DNA of 64,000 nucleotides from Zophobihabitans entericus (GTDB lineage: Bacteria > Pseudomonadota > Gammaproteobacteria > Enterobacterales > Orbaceae): the NCBI RefSeq assembly GCF_011745665.1, contig NZ_CP050253.1:161418-225417 (forward strand). The letters run 5' to 3'. The notes under the pieces are model-generated. The model saw only the letters and a program-made list of their open reading frames with translations, was not told where the DNA came from and did no database searches. Of this stretch, positions 17,459-24,018 are shown piece by piece. Positions within the stretch are counted from its first letter, which is position 1. Each line of letters opens with the position of its first letter. The position numbers and the translations under genes were made by a program.

Positions 17459-20164
17459 CTATTGAACTTGTCCATGACAATGTTTGTATTTCTTACCAGA
17501 ACCACAAGGACATGGCTCGTTACGTCCGACTTTTACGCCCTGACGGACTACCGGCTGACCATTGTTATCCAGATTATCAACTTCACTATGGCTTAACTTT
17601 TGCTTTTCAGCCAGCTTTTCCATTTCAGCAATACGTTGACGCTCTGCTTCTTCCACTTCTTCCTGAGAACGAATACGTACACGGCTTAGCACACCAATTA
17701 CATCATATTTCAGAGCTTCAAGCATATTAGCAAACAGCGCGAACGATTCACGTTTAAACTCTTGTTTAGGATCTTTTTGTGCATAACCACGTAAGTGAAT
17801 ACCCTGACGCAGGTGATCAACCGCAGCCAGATGCTCTTTCCAAAGAGTATCCAGTGTTTGTAGCATCACGCTCTTCTCAAAATTACGCAGCGCTGCTTCA
17901 CCTACAATCGCTTCTTTTTCACGGTAGCGTTCAATGGCAGTATTGAGAATTCTTTCTCGGAGTGTCTCTTCATGCAGATTTGGCTCTTTATCCAGCCAGT
18001 CAGAAACAGGTAAATCTAAATCAAAGTCAGTTTTTAGTGCCTGCTCAAGCCCCGGAACATCCCACATCTCTTCCACTGATTGCGGTGGAATATATTGGCT
18101 AACCACAGTTTCAAACACGTCACGACGGATTGAGTCGATAGTATCTTTAACATCAGAATTATCTAACAGATCATTACGCTGACTGTAAATAGCACGACGC
18201 TGATCGTTGGCTACATCATCATATTCAAGTAGTTGTTTACGAATATCAAAGTTACGGCTTTCTACTTTACGCTGCGCGTTAGAAATCGCTTTGGTTACCC
18301 ATGGATGCTCAATCGCTTCGCCTTCTTTCATGCCCAGCTTACGCATCATATTACCAACACGTTCAGAAGCAAAGATACGCATTAAGGAGTCTTCTAAAGA
18401 CAAGTAGAAACGAGAAACACCCGGATCCCCCTGACGACCCGCACGACCACGTAACTGGTTATCGATACGACGGGATTCATGGCGCTCAGTACCTAAAATA
18501 TATAAACCGCCTAACGCTAAGATCTCATCATGACGAATTTGCCATTCACGCTTGATCTCTTCAATTTGTGCTTCAGTCGGAGATTCAAGTTTAGCAATCT
18601 CCATCTGCCAGTTACCACCAAGCATAATATCGGTACCACGACCCGCCATATTAGTGGCAATTGTTACCGCACCTTTTTGACCAGCATTGGCAATAATTTC
18701 TGCTTCTTTAGCATGGAACTTTGCATTCAGTACATTATGTTTGATACCGGCTTTATCCAGCGCATGAGAAACCATCTCGGATTTTTCAATTGAAGCAGTA
18801 CCTACAAGCACTGGCTGACCAGTTTTCACACAGGCCTGAATATCCGCAATAATTGCGTCGATCTTCTCTTTCTCAGTCATAAAGACTAAGTCAGGTAAAT
18901 CTTTACGTACCATCGGTTTATTGGTTGGTACTACGATGGTATCTAAACCATAGATTTGGTTAAATTCGAACGCTTCAGTATCAGCAGTACCTGTCATCCC
19001 GGCTAGTTTCTCATACAGACGGAAGTAGTTCTGGAATGTAATAGAGGCTAAAGTCTGGTTCTCATTTTGAATATCCACTTTCTCTTTCGCTTCAACAGCC
19101 TGATGTAAACCATCTGACCAGCGACGACCTTCCATTGTACGACCAGTATGTTCATCAACGATGATGACTTCACCCTCTTTCACGATATAATCAACATCAC
19201 GGTGGAACAAGTGGTGTGCTCTTAGCGCTGCATTGATGTGATGCATCAGGATAATATTGGATGGTGCGTAAAGTGAATCCTCTGCTTTCATCAGTCCTGC
19301 TTTAATCAGAAGTTCTTCAACTTTAATCAGACCACGCTCTGTTAAGTTAACCTGACGAGATTTTTCATCAATAGAGAAGTCACCTTCACCCTGAAACTCT
19401 TCTGAGTCTTCTTTCTCCTGACGAACTAAACCTGGGACTACTTTATTGATACGAATATATAGATCTGAACTATCTTCAGCCGGACCAGAGATAATTAAAG
19501 GTGTACGTGCTTCATCGATTAAAATGGAGTCGACCTCATCCACCAGCGCATAACTAAGCGGACGTTGCACACGAGACTCTTTAGAAAACACCATGTTGTC
19601 ACGCAGGTAGTCAAAACCGTATTCGTTGTTTGTACCATAGGTGATATCGGCACCGTAAGCTTCACGCTTGGCAACCGGAGGCATATTAGGTAAGTTAATA
19701 CCAACAGTTAAACCTAAAAATTCAAATAACGGGCGGTTATTTTCGGCATCACGTTGTGCTAAGTAATCATTGACGGTAACAATATGTACGCCTTTACCTG
19801 TTAGCGCATTTAAATAAGCAGGGAGTGTTGCAGTTAAGGTTTTACCTTCACCTGTACGCATCTCTGCAATACAGCGATTATTTAGTACCATACCACCAAT
19901 AAGCTGCACATCGAAATGACGCATACCAAATACACGTTTACTTGCTTCACGGACAACTGCGTAAGCTTCTTCTAAAATGCCATCTAATTTTTGCCCGCTC
20001 GCTAAACGCTCTTTAAATTCGGCCGTTTTTTGCTTTAACTCGTCATCAGATAGTGCTTCCATCTGAGGTTCTAAACGGTTGATTCGCTCAACACGTTTTT
20101 TCATGGAGTTTAAAACACGGTCATTACGGCTACCAAAAACTTTTGTCAGTAATTTTAAAAACAT
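17459..20164 (-). CDS. secA: Preprotein translocase ATPase SecA
   Basis: The cytosolic motor that pushes unfolded preproteins through SecYEG. Walker [15 protein letters not shown]-like [16 protein letters not shown] and the [13 protein letters not shown] helicase motif are all present, as is the C-terminal zinc/SecB-binding tail with [13 protein letters not shown]. Two ATGs open the frame (20170 and 20164). I choose 20164 because AAAGAG lies 6 bases upstream of it and directly abuts the other, and because the product (901 residues, [13 protein letters not shown]) then matches E. coli exactly in length. Translation is probably controlled by the upstream secM arrest switch. mutT follows. Confidence 0.98.
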
Positions 20165-20165
20165 A

Positions 20166-20309
20166 ATCATCTCTTTTTAGTGATTACTCATCCGTTGAGT
20201 AATTTATGATAAGGAATTTTGTCAATTAACCGCTAAACGACAAAATCTAAAACATCAATATTTCAATAAAATATTCTGTTGCTGCTTATATAAAAGTTAT
20301 AGAGATGAT
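20166..20309 (-). promoter_or_regulatory. secM-secA translational switch: secA ribosome site pairs with the secM arrest codons
   Basis: In the secM-secA mRNA, AUCAUCUCU (minus strand, 20309 to 20301) is perfectly complementary to AGAGAUGAU (20174 to 20166), which contains the secA ribosome-binding site. The first segment encodes the end of SecM, immediately after the GIRAGP arrest codons. A ribosome stalled there would cover it and free the secA start. A small hairpin ATTACTCA/TGAGTAAT at about 20183-20203 and a GTC..GAC-flanked stem further out lie between the arms. This is the same logic as the E. coli secM-secA switch. The pairing is seen in the sequence; the regulation is inferred. Confidence 0.8.
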
Positions 20310-20653
20310 GGGCCGGCTCGAATGCCGTGAGCGATAGAAAACCAGAAACAAATAGCCAGCACAACAATTGAGAACTGGCTAACATAGCTTTGTGACAATA
20401 AAGTCTGGCTGCTAATCAGTTTAGGTTGTGTTAAATAAAATGGTTCTGCTTGAGTAGACTGGGTAGACAGTGATTCCTGCAAATGCGCTTTAGCAATTGA
20501 GGCAATCGTAATAATATTGACAGGCTGACCAGTAATTTGATTTGGCAGTGCCGACGGATTCATGGATAATCCGAAGCCAGCAGCAATCACACCTAATAAT
20601 AAGTGCGATAAAAAGTAACGCTTGCTGATTTGTTGCCAATAATTAATAATCAT
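20297..20653 (-). CDS. secM: SecM translation-arrest monitor of secretion
   Basis: A 118-residue secretion monitor. The N-terminal hydrophobic segment (FLSHLLLGVIAAGFGLS, about 14-30) serves as the export signal. The protein ends with WFSIAHGIRAGPSSL. GIRAGP and the Trp six residues before it are the core of the E. coli arrest sequence. The E. coli Ile beside that Trp is Phe here, and the Phe 11 residues before GIRAGP is Leu. The arrest segment follows a second hydrophobic stretch (FSIVVLAICFWF). SecM stalls its own ribosome until SecA pulls on the chain, raising secA translation. It is immediately upstream of secA and divergent from dciA. Confidence 0.9.
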   Translation of the reverse strand: MIINYWQQISKRYFLSHLLLGVIAAGFGLSMNPSALPNQITGQPVNIITIASIAKAHLQESLSTQSTQAEPFYLTQPKLISSQTLLSQSYVSQFSIVVLAICFWFSIAHGIRAGPSSL

Positions 20654-20747
20654 AACGACAATATGTTACCCCATTTTTACTAGTTTGGACATGGTTATTT
20701 TTTGATCCCGTTGATATCATAAACCAACTTAATTAACGAGACTTTAT

Positions 20748-21218
20748 ATGCGCAGTAGCACACCTCAATCGCTGGAAAATCTGATTAGTGACGACTCGTC
20801 ACTCAAAGCGATCCAACAACGTGCCATAGCTTTGATGAAAATTGAGCAGGAAGTAAAAAAACATCTGCCTGAACAATTACGCGCTGCATGTCGTGTTGCT
20901 AATTATCGTAATTATGTCCTGATCATCGAAGTTTCAAGTGCCGGCTGGTTAACTCGATTACGTTATGAGCAGGAAAAGCTCCTTTCGAACCTAAGACAAA
21001 GCCTGTTGCCATCGATATCTTCCATTAGTTATGTAATTAATCCGGAATTACAGACTGTAAAGCACATTATGCAAAATACTCAACTGGAAAAAGAGCGTAC
21101 GCTCAGTCCACAAAGTGCCGCCATTCTGGAAGAAATTGCTAAAAATAGTCCTGCCCGCTTACAAACTCAGTTACTAAAACTGGCAAAACATGCAAAAAAA
21201 TCTGATAATAAGGACTAG
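20748..21218 (+). CDS. dciA: DciA-like replicative helicase loader (DUF721)
   Basis: 156 residues of the DUF721 family. The N-terminal domain (about 10-100) shows the KH-like pattern with LPEQLRAACRVANYRNYVLIIEV and WLTRLRYEQEKLLSNLR; the C-terminal third is a basic helical tail. DciA proteins help load the DnaB helicase at the origin in most bacteria. E. coli lacks DciA and uses DnaC instead, so this gene suggests that the host keeps the ancestral loader. It is divergent from secM (94-base gap), as in several gammaproteobacteria where DUF721 sits beside secA. Confidence 0.85.
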   Translation: MRSSTPQSLENLISDDSSLKAIQQRAIALMKIEQEVKKHLPEQLRAACRVANYRNYVLIIEVSSAGWLTRLRYEQEKLLSNLRQSLLPSISSISYVINPELQTVKHIMQNTQLEKERTLSPQSAAILEEIAKNSPARLQTQLLKLAKHAKKSDNKD

Positions 21219-21284
21219 CCGAGAGCGGACAAGTAGGCTAATCTACACGCAAATCTATAAAGAGTAATGCAAGGAGTAAAAATA

Positions 21285-21698
21285 ATGACAACAGAGATGA
21301 TCCAATATCTGGTAATTGGTGCAGTGGTAGGTCTGTTAGTTGGACTGATTTTATCTAACATCTTAAATCCTAAATTACGTAAATATCGTAAAATTAAAAA
21401 AGAGCTAGATGATACGAAACAAGAACTGGTTAATCAGAAACAAGTAATTGCTAAACATTTTTCTCACAGTGCTGAACTACTTGATAATATGGCCAGAGAT
21501 TTCCGTCGCCTTTATCAACATATGGCAGAAAACTCAAGCCAGTTATTATCTGATGCAGAGTTAAAAGAGCCAACTTATGATGGTATTGAAATTGCAGAAA
21601 CTCATAAATTAGAAGAGCCTGCACTGGAAGAAGCACCAAAAGATTATTCAGGAAATCCATCAGGATTATTAAAACCTGATACAGAACATAAATCCTAA
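21285..21698 (+). CDS. zapG: ZapG/YhcB cell-division and envelope protein
   Basis: An inner-membrane protein (DUF1043) of 137 residues with one N-terminal helix (LVIGAVVGLLVGLILSN), then a long coiled coil (about 35-85) containing FSHSAELLDNMARDFRRLYQ, which closely matches E. coli YhcB/ZapG. The C-terminus is acidic and proline-containing and ends in YSGNPSGLL, also like E. coli. ZapG links division with envelope synthesis. The frame opens at 21267, but AAGGAG at 21271-21276 lies 8 bases before the ATG at 21285, which I take as the start. degQ follows, as yhcB and degQ are neighbours in E. coli. Confidence 0.93.
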   Translation: MTTEMIQYLVIGAVVGLLVGLILSNILNPKLRKYRKIKKELDDTKQELVNQKQVIAKHFSHSAELLDNMARDFRRLYQHMAENSSQLLSDAELKEPTYDGIEIAETHKLEEPALEEAPKDYSGNPSGLLKPDTEHKS

Positions 21699-21823
21699 TC
21701 TTGTTTTTTTAAGATCCATCCCCATAATTCTATCATTACGCCAGAGAAATCTGGCGCAATCTCAACTTTACTTTATTTAGTTTAGTTAATATTGAGTTAA
21801 GTTAATTTATGAGAGAGTGATTA

Positions 21824-23206
21824 ATGATGAATAATTCTAACCGCAAAGGAAAACTACTCAGTGTTTTAGCATTGAGTATCGGATTAAGTTTTACTGCCCT
21901 GCCTTCTGCTTATGCATCGCTACCAGCTTTTTTAACTGGTGAAGATGGAACAGAACAAGCTATGCCAAGTCTGGCGCCTATGCTTGAACACGTACTACCT
22001 TCAGTAGTGAGTATTCAGGTAGAAGGAACCGCTCAGATGCAACCCAATATTCCGGAAGAATTTCGTCAATTCTTTGGTTATCGTGGCAATCAAGAGCGTG
22101 CCTTTGTAGGACAAGGCTCCGGGGTGATTATTAACGCAGATAAGGGCTATGTCGTCACCAATAATCACGTGATCGATAATGCCAATAAAATCAAAATCTC
22201 CTTAAATGACGGACGGGAATTTACCGCTAAACTGATTGGTCGTGATCCGCAGTCAGATATTGCCTTACTGCAAATTGAAGATGGTAAGCGTTTAACCGCC
22301 ATTAAAGTGTCTGATTCCGATAAATTAAAAGTCGGTGACTTCGCTGTTGCTATCGGTAATCCTTTTGGTATCGGTCAAACGGTAACATCAGGGATTATTT
22401 CTGCCCTTGGCCGTAGCGGTTTAAATATGAATGGTTTTGAAAACTTCATTCAAACCGATGCTTCAATTAACCGTGGTAACTCTGGTGGCGCGTTAATCAA
22501 CTTAAAAGGTGAGCTGATCGGTATCAATACTGCAATTATTGCCCCGGGTGGTGGTAACGTTGGTATCGGCTTTGCTATCCCAAGTAACATGGTAGAGAAC
22601 CTAACCTCTCAGCTAATTGAGTTTGGTGAAGTGAAACGTGGAGTCCTTGGTATTAAAGGTAATGAGTTAACATCTGATATCGCTAAAGCCTTTGATCTGG
22701 ATGTACAAAAAGGTGCGTTTGTCAGTGAAGTGATTGAAAACTCCTCTGCAGCAGATGCTGGTGTTAAAGCAGGTGACGTGATTATCTCTTTAGATGGTAA
22801 AGCCATTGATAGCTTTGCTGAGTTGCGCGCTAAAATTGCCACTATGGGTGCCGGACGTGACGTATCACTAGGTATTATCCGTGATGGTAAACAACAAACT
22901 TTAACGGCAAAACTAAAAAATAGTGATGAAGCAGTAACAGAGGCAAAATCTCTTCATCCATCTTTAGAAGGTGCCACACTGGTAAATGGTGACGCGACCG
23001 GTCAATCTGGTGTTGTCATTGAGAATGTTGCTCAGGGCTCACCGGCAGCACGTTTAAGTTTACAGGCTGGTGATGTCATTACTGGTGTTAACCGTGAACG
23101 TATTGATAACATCGCTGATTTAAGAAAAATCATCGACAGTAAACCATCTGCTATCGCGTTAAACATTGTGCGCGGCAATAGCCGGGTTTACCTCATCTTA
23201 CGTTAA
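21824..23206 (+). CDS. degQ: Periplasmic serine endoprotease DegQ/DegP (Do family)
   Basis: A 460-residue HtrA protease that degrades or refolds damaged periplasmic proteins. A signal peptide ends near SAYAS (about residue 31). The trypsin-like domain has the triad His115 (TNNHVI), Asp145 (SDIALL) and Ser220 (RGNSGGAL). Two PDZ domains follow (about 265-355 and 375-460). Its length and the short Q-linker region favour DegQ over the longer DegP, as does its place after zapG/yhcB, the E. coli order. Two ATGs (21824 and 21827) are possible. A strong terminator follows. Confidence 0.94.
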   Translation: MMNNSNRKGKLLSVLALSIGLSFTALPSAYASLPAFLTGEDGTEQAMPSLAPMLEHVLPSVVSIQVEGTAQMQPNIPEEFRQFFGYRGNQERAFVGQGSGVIINADKGYVVTNNHVIDNANKIKISLNDGREFTAKLIGRDPQSDIALLQIEDGKRLTAIKVSDSDKLKVGDFAVAIGNPFGIGQTVTSGIISALGRSGLNMNGFENFIQTDASINRGNSGGALINLKGELIGINTAIIAPGGGNVGIGFAIPSNMVENLTSQLIEFGEVKRGVLGIKGNELTSDIAKAFDLDVQKGAFVSEVIENSSAADAGVKAGDVIISLDGKAIDSFAELRAKIATMGAGRDVSLGIIRDGKQQTLTAKLKNSDEAVTEAKSLHPSLEGATLVNGDATGQSGVVIENVAQGSPAARLSLQAGDVITGVNRERIDNIADLRKIIDSKPSAIALNIVRGNSRVYLILR

Positions 23207-23222
23207 TTAATTTTTGCATTAA

Positions 23223-23250
23223 AAAAGCCCTCTTATGAGGGCTTTTCTTT
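23223..23250. terminator. Rho-independent terminator after degQ
   Basis: AAAAGCCCTC (23223-23232) and GAGGGCTTTT (23237-23246) form a 10-bp stem with a TTAT loop, then TCTTTT. Poly-A on the other flank lets it serve the convergent DUF3597 gene as well. Confidence 0.93.
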
Positions 23251-23261
23251 TAGCTATAAAC

Positions 23262-23672
23262 TTATTTTAAGCTATCCGGCACTTTACCGCCGTTTTCAGC
23301 TAATTTACGCATCACTTGTTTGTGTAACCAAATATTCATTGATGCAGAATCGTTAGTATCGCCCTGATAATGTAATTCAGCTGCTAATTGTTTACGTGCA
23401 GGCAGGCTGCTGTCTAAGCCTAATAATTTCATCAGGTCAACGATAGATACACGCCAGTTTAATTTTTGGCCGCTTTGTTTAAGCATACCATCTAAAATAC
23501 TTTCAACATCAACGACAGTTGCTGGTTGTTCAGCTTGCGGAGCTTGTTCTGCTGGTGCAGGCGCTACAGCTTCTTCGGTTTGATTGCCTTTATTTACTTT
23601 ATCCGCGATATCTTTCATTGAACCAAAAGCTGGGGTAAAAATTTTAGACATAATGTCTTTAAAAATACTCAT
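23262..23672 (-). CDS. DUF3597 domain protein
   Basis: 136 residues, apparently cytosolic (no signal peptide or membrane helix). The N-terminus MSIFKDIMSKIF and a Pro/Ala/Glu-rich linker (about 30-52) precede a compact C-terminal domain with VDVESILDGMLKQSGQKLNW, SIVDLMKLLGLDSSLPARK and a Trp-containing helix. This matches the DUF3597 family, known from a structure but without an assigned biochemical role. The gene is alone between a terminator and tRNA-Ala. AAGGGAG upstream of the ATG is a good ribosome site. Confidence 0.85.
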   Translation of the reverse strand: MSIFKDIMSKIFTPAFGSMKDIADKVNKGNQTEEAVAPAPAEQAPQAEQPATVVDVESILDGMLKQSGQKLNWRVSIVDLMKLLGLDSSLPARKQLAAELHYQGDTNDSASMNIWLHKQVMRKLAENGGKVPDSLK

Positions 23673-23828
23673 GTAATAACTCCCTTTCTATTCTTATAAA
23701 ATATAATTTATAAATGATATAAATTCCTGCGCAATGTAGCGGGATTTTAAGAAATATTCAAGATTAAATGATAACTTATTGTGATAGGTGGAGTATTAAA
23801 ACAGCTTCCTGACTGAAAGATATTGATT

Positions 23829-23904
<76 letters not shown>

Positions 23905-23981
23905 ACTATAGAAGGGAAAACTGAGCGCAATGATATGCAACTCAGAGAAAACTGTCAACAACTTTACCTGATTAAATAACA

Positions 23982-24018
23982 ATTAAGCCGACAATCTGAG
24001 AGAATTTGTCGGCTTAAT
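23982..24018 (-). terminator. Terminator after secF
   Basis: ATTAAGCCGACAA (23982-23994) pairs perfectly with TTGTCGGCTTAAT (24006-24018), giving a 13-bp stem with an 11-base loop, 8 bases past the secF stop. It closes the yajC-secD-secF operon. The U-tract is weak. Confidence 0.8.

Follow-up and report, generated by a model that had tools for sequence, protein, structure and literature searches.

According to the accessible parts of the cited reports, Escherichia coli SecM terminates in an IRAGP arrest end (PMC10987492) in which Arg163, Gly165, and Pro166 are essential (PMC4737659), and changes at Phe150, Trp155, and Ile156 weaken the arrest (PMC4373844). A stem-loop at the stalling site is described as hiding the secA ribosome site, with the stalled ribosome opening that stem-loop, in the portions available of three further papers (PMC10951299, PMC7897499, PMC10501990). 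Ahead of secDF2, a ribosome stalled on uDF_RQH_Enterobacterales is similarly believed to open a stem in which the Shine-Dalgarno of the following gene is partly hidden, and the available text reports an experimental test of this disruption (PMC10987492). That system has in common with the locus described here the use of an arrest peptide and differs from it in its target gene, secDF2, and in its arrest motif.

In our calculations, CCTCAACGCCTCA, which encodes E. coli K-12 SecM from Pro166 onward, pairs with GGGGCGTTTGAGA, the holder of the secA Shine-Dalgarno; this helix was absent from the single minimum-energy fold of the stretch folded and was seen in duplex and ensemble calculations. The early papers on the RNA structure in E. 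coli, McNicholas 1997 among them, may have drawn this exact helix. Since the arrest codons of E. coli pair with the secA Shine-Dalgarno, direct coupling of arrest point and ribosome site is a known layout, and the claim in a preliminary description of the present locus that its coupling is tighter than that of a separate helper hairpin had to be dropped.

The DNA analysed here, referred to as the window, is a stretch of 64,000 nucleotides from what we take to be a gut-symbiont-type bacterium. It very probably carries a SecM-secA translational switch, and the locus looks like a clean new example of the known system with its own helix sequence and an unusually hydrophobic arrest peptide.

The secM-secA locus and its arrest peptide

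The window locus shares with E. coli SecM-secA the order of secM before secA, a signal sequence (putative here), the IRAGP arrest end, and the pairing of the codons from the arrest Pro onward with the secA Shine-Dalgarno (Table 1). It differs in the helix, the sequence of which is unrelated, in an intergenic stretch of 132 nt vs 61 nt, in a target that includes the spacer, in the hydrophobic character of the arrest segment, and in a protein length of 118 vs 170 aa. The window SecM ends in ...AICFWFSIAHGIRAGPSSL, with the terminal layout FSIVVLAICFWFSIAH-GIRAGP-SSL. As a whole protein it scores below every curated Pfam and NCBIfam cut-off, at 57.6 bits for the NCBIfam SecM model (cut-off 100), which aligns to residues 2-44, 21.1 for a second NCBIfam score (cut-off 45), 19.7 bits for PF10818, SecM_small (cut-off 26.1), and 14.9 for PF06558 (cut-off 25). 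For a SecM secretion monitor, a curated cut-off is diagnostic and not defining. The NCBIfam match over residues 2-44, together with the signal-like appearance of the sequence, points to a putative export signal at the N-terminus.

Table 1 Features of the window locus (coordinates are positions in the window)
Feature	Coordinates	Strand	Basis or remark
secM	20297..20653	-	ORF directly upstream of secA, same strand
N-terminal export-signal-like region of SecM (MIINYWQQISKRYFLSHLLLGVIAAGFG...)	20522..20653	-	best-matching part against SecM model; sequence appearance
Hydrophobic arrest segment, 16 residues (FSIVVLAICFWFSIAH)	20327..20374	-	Trp155-equivalent codon at 20342-20344
GIRAGP arrest motif codons	20309..20326	-	sequence; motif known from E. 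coli SecM (PMC10987492, accessible parts)
Anti-start strand (AUCAUCUCU)	20301..20309	-	inside expected stalled-ribosome footprint; pair probabilities 0.81-1.0
Intergenic hairpin 1	20251..20280	-	predicted minimum-energy fold
Intergenic hairpin 2	20215..20247	-	predicted minimum-energy fold
Intergenic hairpin 3	20183..20203	-	predicted fold; immediately ahead of Shine-Dalgarno
Target (AGAGAUGAU)	20166..20174	-	secA Shine-Dalgarno GAG plus spacer, upstream ATG included
secA	17459..20164	-	second ATG taken as start

Two in-frame ATGs, at 20170 and 20164, could open secA. The residue homologous to the second is the secA start in all 42 of 42 relatives, and the ATG at 20170 is thus probably not the true start. 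With the start at 20164, the Shine-Dalgarno GAG lies six bases ahead of it and the nine-base target at 20174-20166 corresponds to Shine-Dalgarno plus spacer. The preliminary description was therefore right that this target holds the secA ribosome site and probably mistaken in treating the first ATG as the start. No Rfam match reached the gathering score within 20000-21000, and no terminator was found in the secM-secA interval.

In the arrest peptide, GIRAGP and the upstream Trp that had been pointed out earlier are both intact in the translated ORF; the Trp155 equivalent is kept, the Phe150 equivalent is Leu, and the Ile156 equivalent is Phe. Trp occupies the 155 position in 108 of 114 Enterobacteriaceae-type loci. 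The SecM_small proteins of the Pasteurellaceae (PF10818) resemble the window SecM in length, in their place before secA, in carrying IRAGP and, in several members, in stall codons that pair with the secA start. They are unlike it in that 74 of 84 read PIRAGP and the six residues most often seen at the 155 position do not include Trp, and the window SecM, unlike them, falls under the PF10818 cut-off. Since Phe150 and Trp155 are absent from most Pasteurellaceae SecM, these residues do not define the family.

The segment ahead of GIRAGP had been called diverged and hydrophobic, and its mean hydropathy over 16 residues, 2.16, is indeed the highest of 242 loci, the runner-up having 1.17. The segment resembles a transmembrane stretch. 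At arrest it would sit within the ribosome exit tunnel, and it would test what the tunnel tolerates upstream of IRAGP. This outlying hydropathy and the altered Phe150 and Ile156 equivalents could also mean that SecM is decaying in the window lineage, the hydrophobic segment having replaced part of the arrest peptide so that arrest is weak or lost. We consider such decay very unlikely, given that GIRAGP and Trp are intact and that the window shows the largest masking effect (below) among the loci given the masking test.

Pairing of the stall codons with the secA start and its modelled masking

The nine bases ATCATCTCT (20309-20301) are perfectly complementary to AGAGATGAT (20174-20166), as had been noted from the sequence. 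They start at the third base of the GIRAGP Pro codon and end at the second of the Leu codon, so that the Pro belongs to the motif, rather than following it as was first written. When the secA start region was compared with the 400 nt before the arrest codons and with the intergenic stretch, this was the sole Watson-Crick run of at least 8. When the 18-nt stall segment was shuffled 20000 times, 12 of the shuffles gave a run of at least 9.

The mRNA under a stalled ribosome extends to ~15 nt, counted from where the P-site codon begins, and with the Gly of GIRAGP in the P site this footprint would take in all nine pairing bases. The masking test compared the free energy needed to open secA positions -16 to +6 in the whole RNA and in the part outside the stalled ribosome, and all folding was equilibrium modelling. 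Opening the secA start was calculated to cost 8.9 kcal/mol free and 3.3 masked, a difference of 5.6, and this effect was stable from 25 to 37 C, when the upstream RNA was 30-350 nt long, and for three footprint lengths. Shuffling the masked bases gave an average effect of 0.4, with 0 of 100 shuffles attaining 5.6. E. coli K-12, the positive control, gave 1.8 kcal/mol (1 of 100 shuffles), so that modelled masking is stronger in the window than in E. coli. Among the 864 synonymous encodings of P-S-S-L, 10, the native one included, equalled or exceeded the native effect. An effect of at least 5.6 kcal/mol was found at 3 of 1200 random window ATGs given the same geometry, and the top effect among 44 long-ORF starts of the window was 5.4, a value that may belong to secA, taken with its first ATG as the start.

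For 20130-20340, the minimum-energy fold is predicted at -41.6 kcal/mol (z -2.18), a value that 4 of 200 shuffles equalled or bettered, and in it the nine-base helix closes a loop that contains the intergenic hairpins; as modelled, hairpins 1-3 shorten the loop separating the pairing strands. In these folding models, the secA Shine-Dalgarno is hidden by mRNA structure and opened by the stalled ribosome. The RNA folding proposed earlier as a check on the secM-secA transcript thus bears out the pairing, with the helix predicted and the secA start freed by masking.

In the switch that these models suggest, the secM Pro-Ser-Ser-Leu codons would pair with the secA Shine-Dalgarno and spacer whenever no stalled ribosome is present, the three intergenic hairpins would bring the strands together over ~130 nt, and secA translation would be low. 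When export is slow, the SecM chain would arrest the ribosome with the GIRAGP Gly in the P site and the Pro in the A site, and the footprint would then cover all nine bases, so that no helix could form and secA would be translated. Export of SecM would pull the chain and release the ribosome. That the ribosome arrests, that pulling on the chain frees it, and that SecA synthesis changes as a result, we infer from E. coli; the window supplies the ORF, the motif, the complementarity, the footprint geometry, the modelled effect, and comparative support through related families. The masking mechanism at this locus, which the preliminary description had proposed, is well supported in silico by the geometry, by folds computed for the whole RNA and for the part outside the footprint, and by comparative evidence in two other families. 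Counting against the switch are the nearest sampled relatives, which are without the pairing, the changed Phe150 and Ile156 equivalents, the sub-cut-off HMM scores, and the random ATGs that match the effect.

Comparison across SecM-secA junctions

In all, 242 loci were located, two genomes being included twice (L081, L082), and 211 were left after dropping identical segment-plus-start pairs. These comprise 97 Enterobacteriaceae-type loci, a set that includes L061 from another family, 75 Pasteurellaceae loci, a group resting partly on PF10818, 38 other Orbaceae loci, and the window. The Enterobacteriaceae-type sample was 60 by region plus search loci, out of 100 genomes with a match, and the Pasteurellaceae sample 40 by region plus search loci, out of 120. 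Dropped before the counts were G034 (no secA match) and L031, L060, and L260 (junction not located). A scan of the genome collection with the window SecM protein found no relative. A DciA scan gave 77 loci, of which L081-L107 (27) were examined, with 15 located and 12 not, and L108-L157 (50, Halomonas and relatives) were left out.

A 13-nt segment was moved from -63 to +63 relative to the arrest Pro codon, and the duplex it forms with the secA start region was tested against shuffles. The Enterobacteriaceae-type loci peaked once, at offset 0, where the mean Z was 1.48 and 44% of loci reached p<=0.05, and the Pasteurellaceae once, at +3 (mean Z 1.06, 29% at p<=0.05), with 0-12% of loci at p<=0.05 outside -3 to +9. 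At offset 0 the window locus reaches Z 4.6, a single, sharp peak. A helix at the end of secM would be disrupted by a terminating ribosome too, and the repressive helix could therefore be real and be controlled by ordinary secM translation, with arrest unnecessary. This translational coupling is the least probable of the alternatives weighed here, as the RAGP arrest end is kept in 43 of 43 Orbaceae junctions and it is around the arrest codon that the pairing peaks, while the codon count from there to the stop varies.

Own partners were then compared with swapped ones. As every arrest Pro codon reads CCN, this comparison also allows for the pairing of CC with GG. In 5000 permutations, none matched the own-partner pairing in either the Enterobacteriaceae-type (z 7.4) or the Pasteurellaceae (z 8.3) group, and the best pairing of the window segment among all 211 start regions was with its own (rank 1). 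Since related rows are not independent, mutually dissimilar rows were also drawn (71-79 from all groups, five draws), and the excess at offsets 0 and +3 persisted (z 3.6-5.8, 0-2 of 2000 per draw) and was absent at -60, -45, -30, and -15 (z -0.5 to 1.6). Among dissimilar rows the Enterobacteriaceae-type alone gave z 2.0-2.6 at offset 0 (10-47 of 2000), weaker than the Pasteurellaceae at z 3.6-4.9 (0-4 of 2000). At +15 and +30, own pairing in dissimilar rows was weaker than swapped pairing (z -0.9 to -2.8), as if avoided, a pattern that would follow from a need for RNA beyond the footprint not to keep the start shut.

Not every locus has a helix, own pairing reaching p<=0.05 in 34 of 97 Enterobacteriaceae-type and 19 of 75 Pasteurellaceae loci. 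Those found are of unrelated sequence: CCTCAACGCC/GGCGTTTGAG with its variant CCTCAACATCT/GATGTTTGAGA, and further TTACATTCTCA/TGAGAATGTA, CCTTTCGTATA/TATATGAAAGG, GCCTAATCG/CGATTAGG, and CCTCTCAGTT/GCTGAGAGA. In Proteus (L093, L095, L096, L098, L103, L104), the partner of TTACCTAACA is not the Shine-Dalgarno but TGTTAGGTAA, the AUG of secA together with its first codons.

We lean towards the view that, in Enterobacterales, the ~13 bases under the SecM-stalled ribosome have been selected as an anti-start strand, the letters and exact target of which were repeatedly reinvented (Shine-Dalgarno in E. coli, Shine-Dalgarno plus spacer in the window, AUG plus first codons in Proteus), while bases past the footprint avoid pairing with the start. 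The arrest point and not the sequence would then define the switch, and the window would be one such case, arisen independently or retained for long, in a family that has mostly lost the pairing. This suggests that the E. coli design, in which the arrest codons are the repressor strand, follows a rule of position rather than one of sequence. A fixed position with a free sequence is the most interesting outcome of this work; the accessible literature, a search with most subscription journals outside it, yielded neither a report of such a rule nor a cross-species comparative study of stall-codon pairing. Complementarity locked to the stall footprint offers a testable signature for true arrest-peptide switches in other genomes.

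Orbaceae relatives and gene neighbourhood

The window genome, the only member of its genus in the comparison, shares one family, presumably the Orbaceae, with Gilliamella, Frischella, and Schmidhempelia. In a SecA tree of 20 rows, it stands beside the genus of Schmidhempelia (98/95 support), and the two together are sister to the remaining family members. The SecM proteins of these genera share with that of the window the position before secA and the IRAGP end, retained in all of them (L002-L043). They are unlike it at the 155 position, which holds Arg or another residue (Trp in 0 of 43 loci), leaving the window as the only Orbaceae locus with the Trp155 equivalent, and in their pairing, which is only weak and found in one Gilliamella subclade.

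In the sliding test, the 38 other Orbaceae loci showed nothing at the arrest codon, with 0 of 38 at p<=0.05 for stall-codon pairing, and swapping their partners revealed no own-partner excess (z -1.0). Small bumps at -21/-18 and -63/-60 were seen among related rows. The masking test gave 5 of 42 relatives at <=2 of 40 shuffles, mostly from one Gilliamella subclade and with weak effects (L012, L023, and L038; 1.4-2.0 kcal/mol, 0-2 of 40 shuffles), and an RNAalifold consensus of 32 aligned Gilliamella-type sequences contained no conserved intergenic structure.

The lack of pairing in these 38 loci and of consensus structure in the 32 sequences, together with the equal effects at random ATGs, would fit a nine-base match that is mere coincidence, with SecM arresting and affecting secA by another route or scarcely, as may also hold for the relatives. 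We regard coincidence as unlikely, if less so than the other two alternatives, because the match is located exactly where two other families have theirs, because shuffles so seldom reproduce it or its masking effect, and because the own partner ranks first. Under the preferred reading of a genuine switch, long retention of the pairing in the window with loss in the other Orbaceae is favoured, and the pairing may instead have been regained in the window lineage.

The divergent neighbour of secM is DciA (55.3 bits, 20748-21218). In the flanks retrieved for the comparison, a DciA gene was also found at four other Orbaceae loci and at several of the Enterobacteriaceae-type and Pasteurellaceae loci, and at none of the Gilliamella-type loci. 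A mechanical ORF at 23776-23982 overlaps a tRNA-Ala gene (23829-23904, minus strand) and is probably not a protein gene. The neighbours across 21267-23672 are ordinary, namely a ZapG-like protein (109.8 bits), a trypsin-PDZ protease, and a DUF3597 protein (173 bits).
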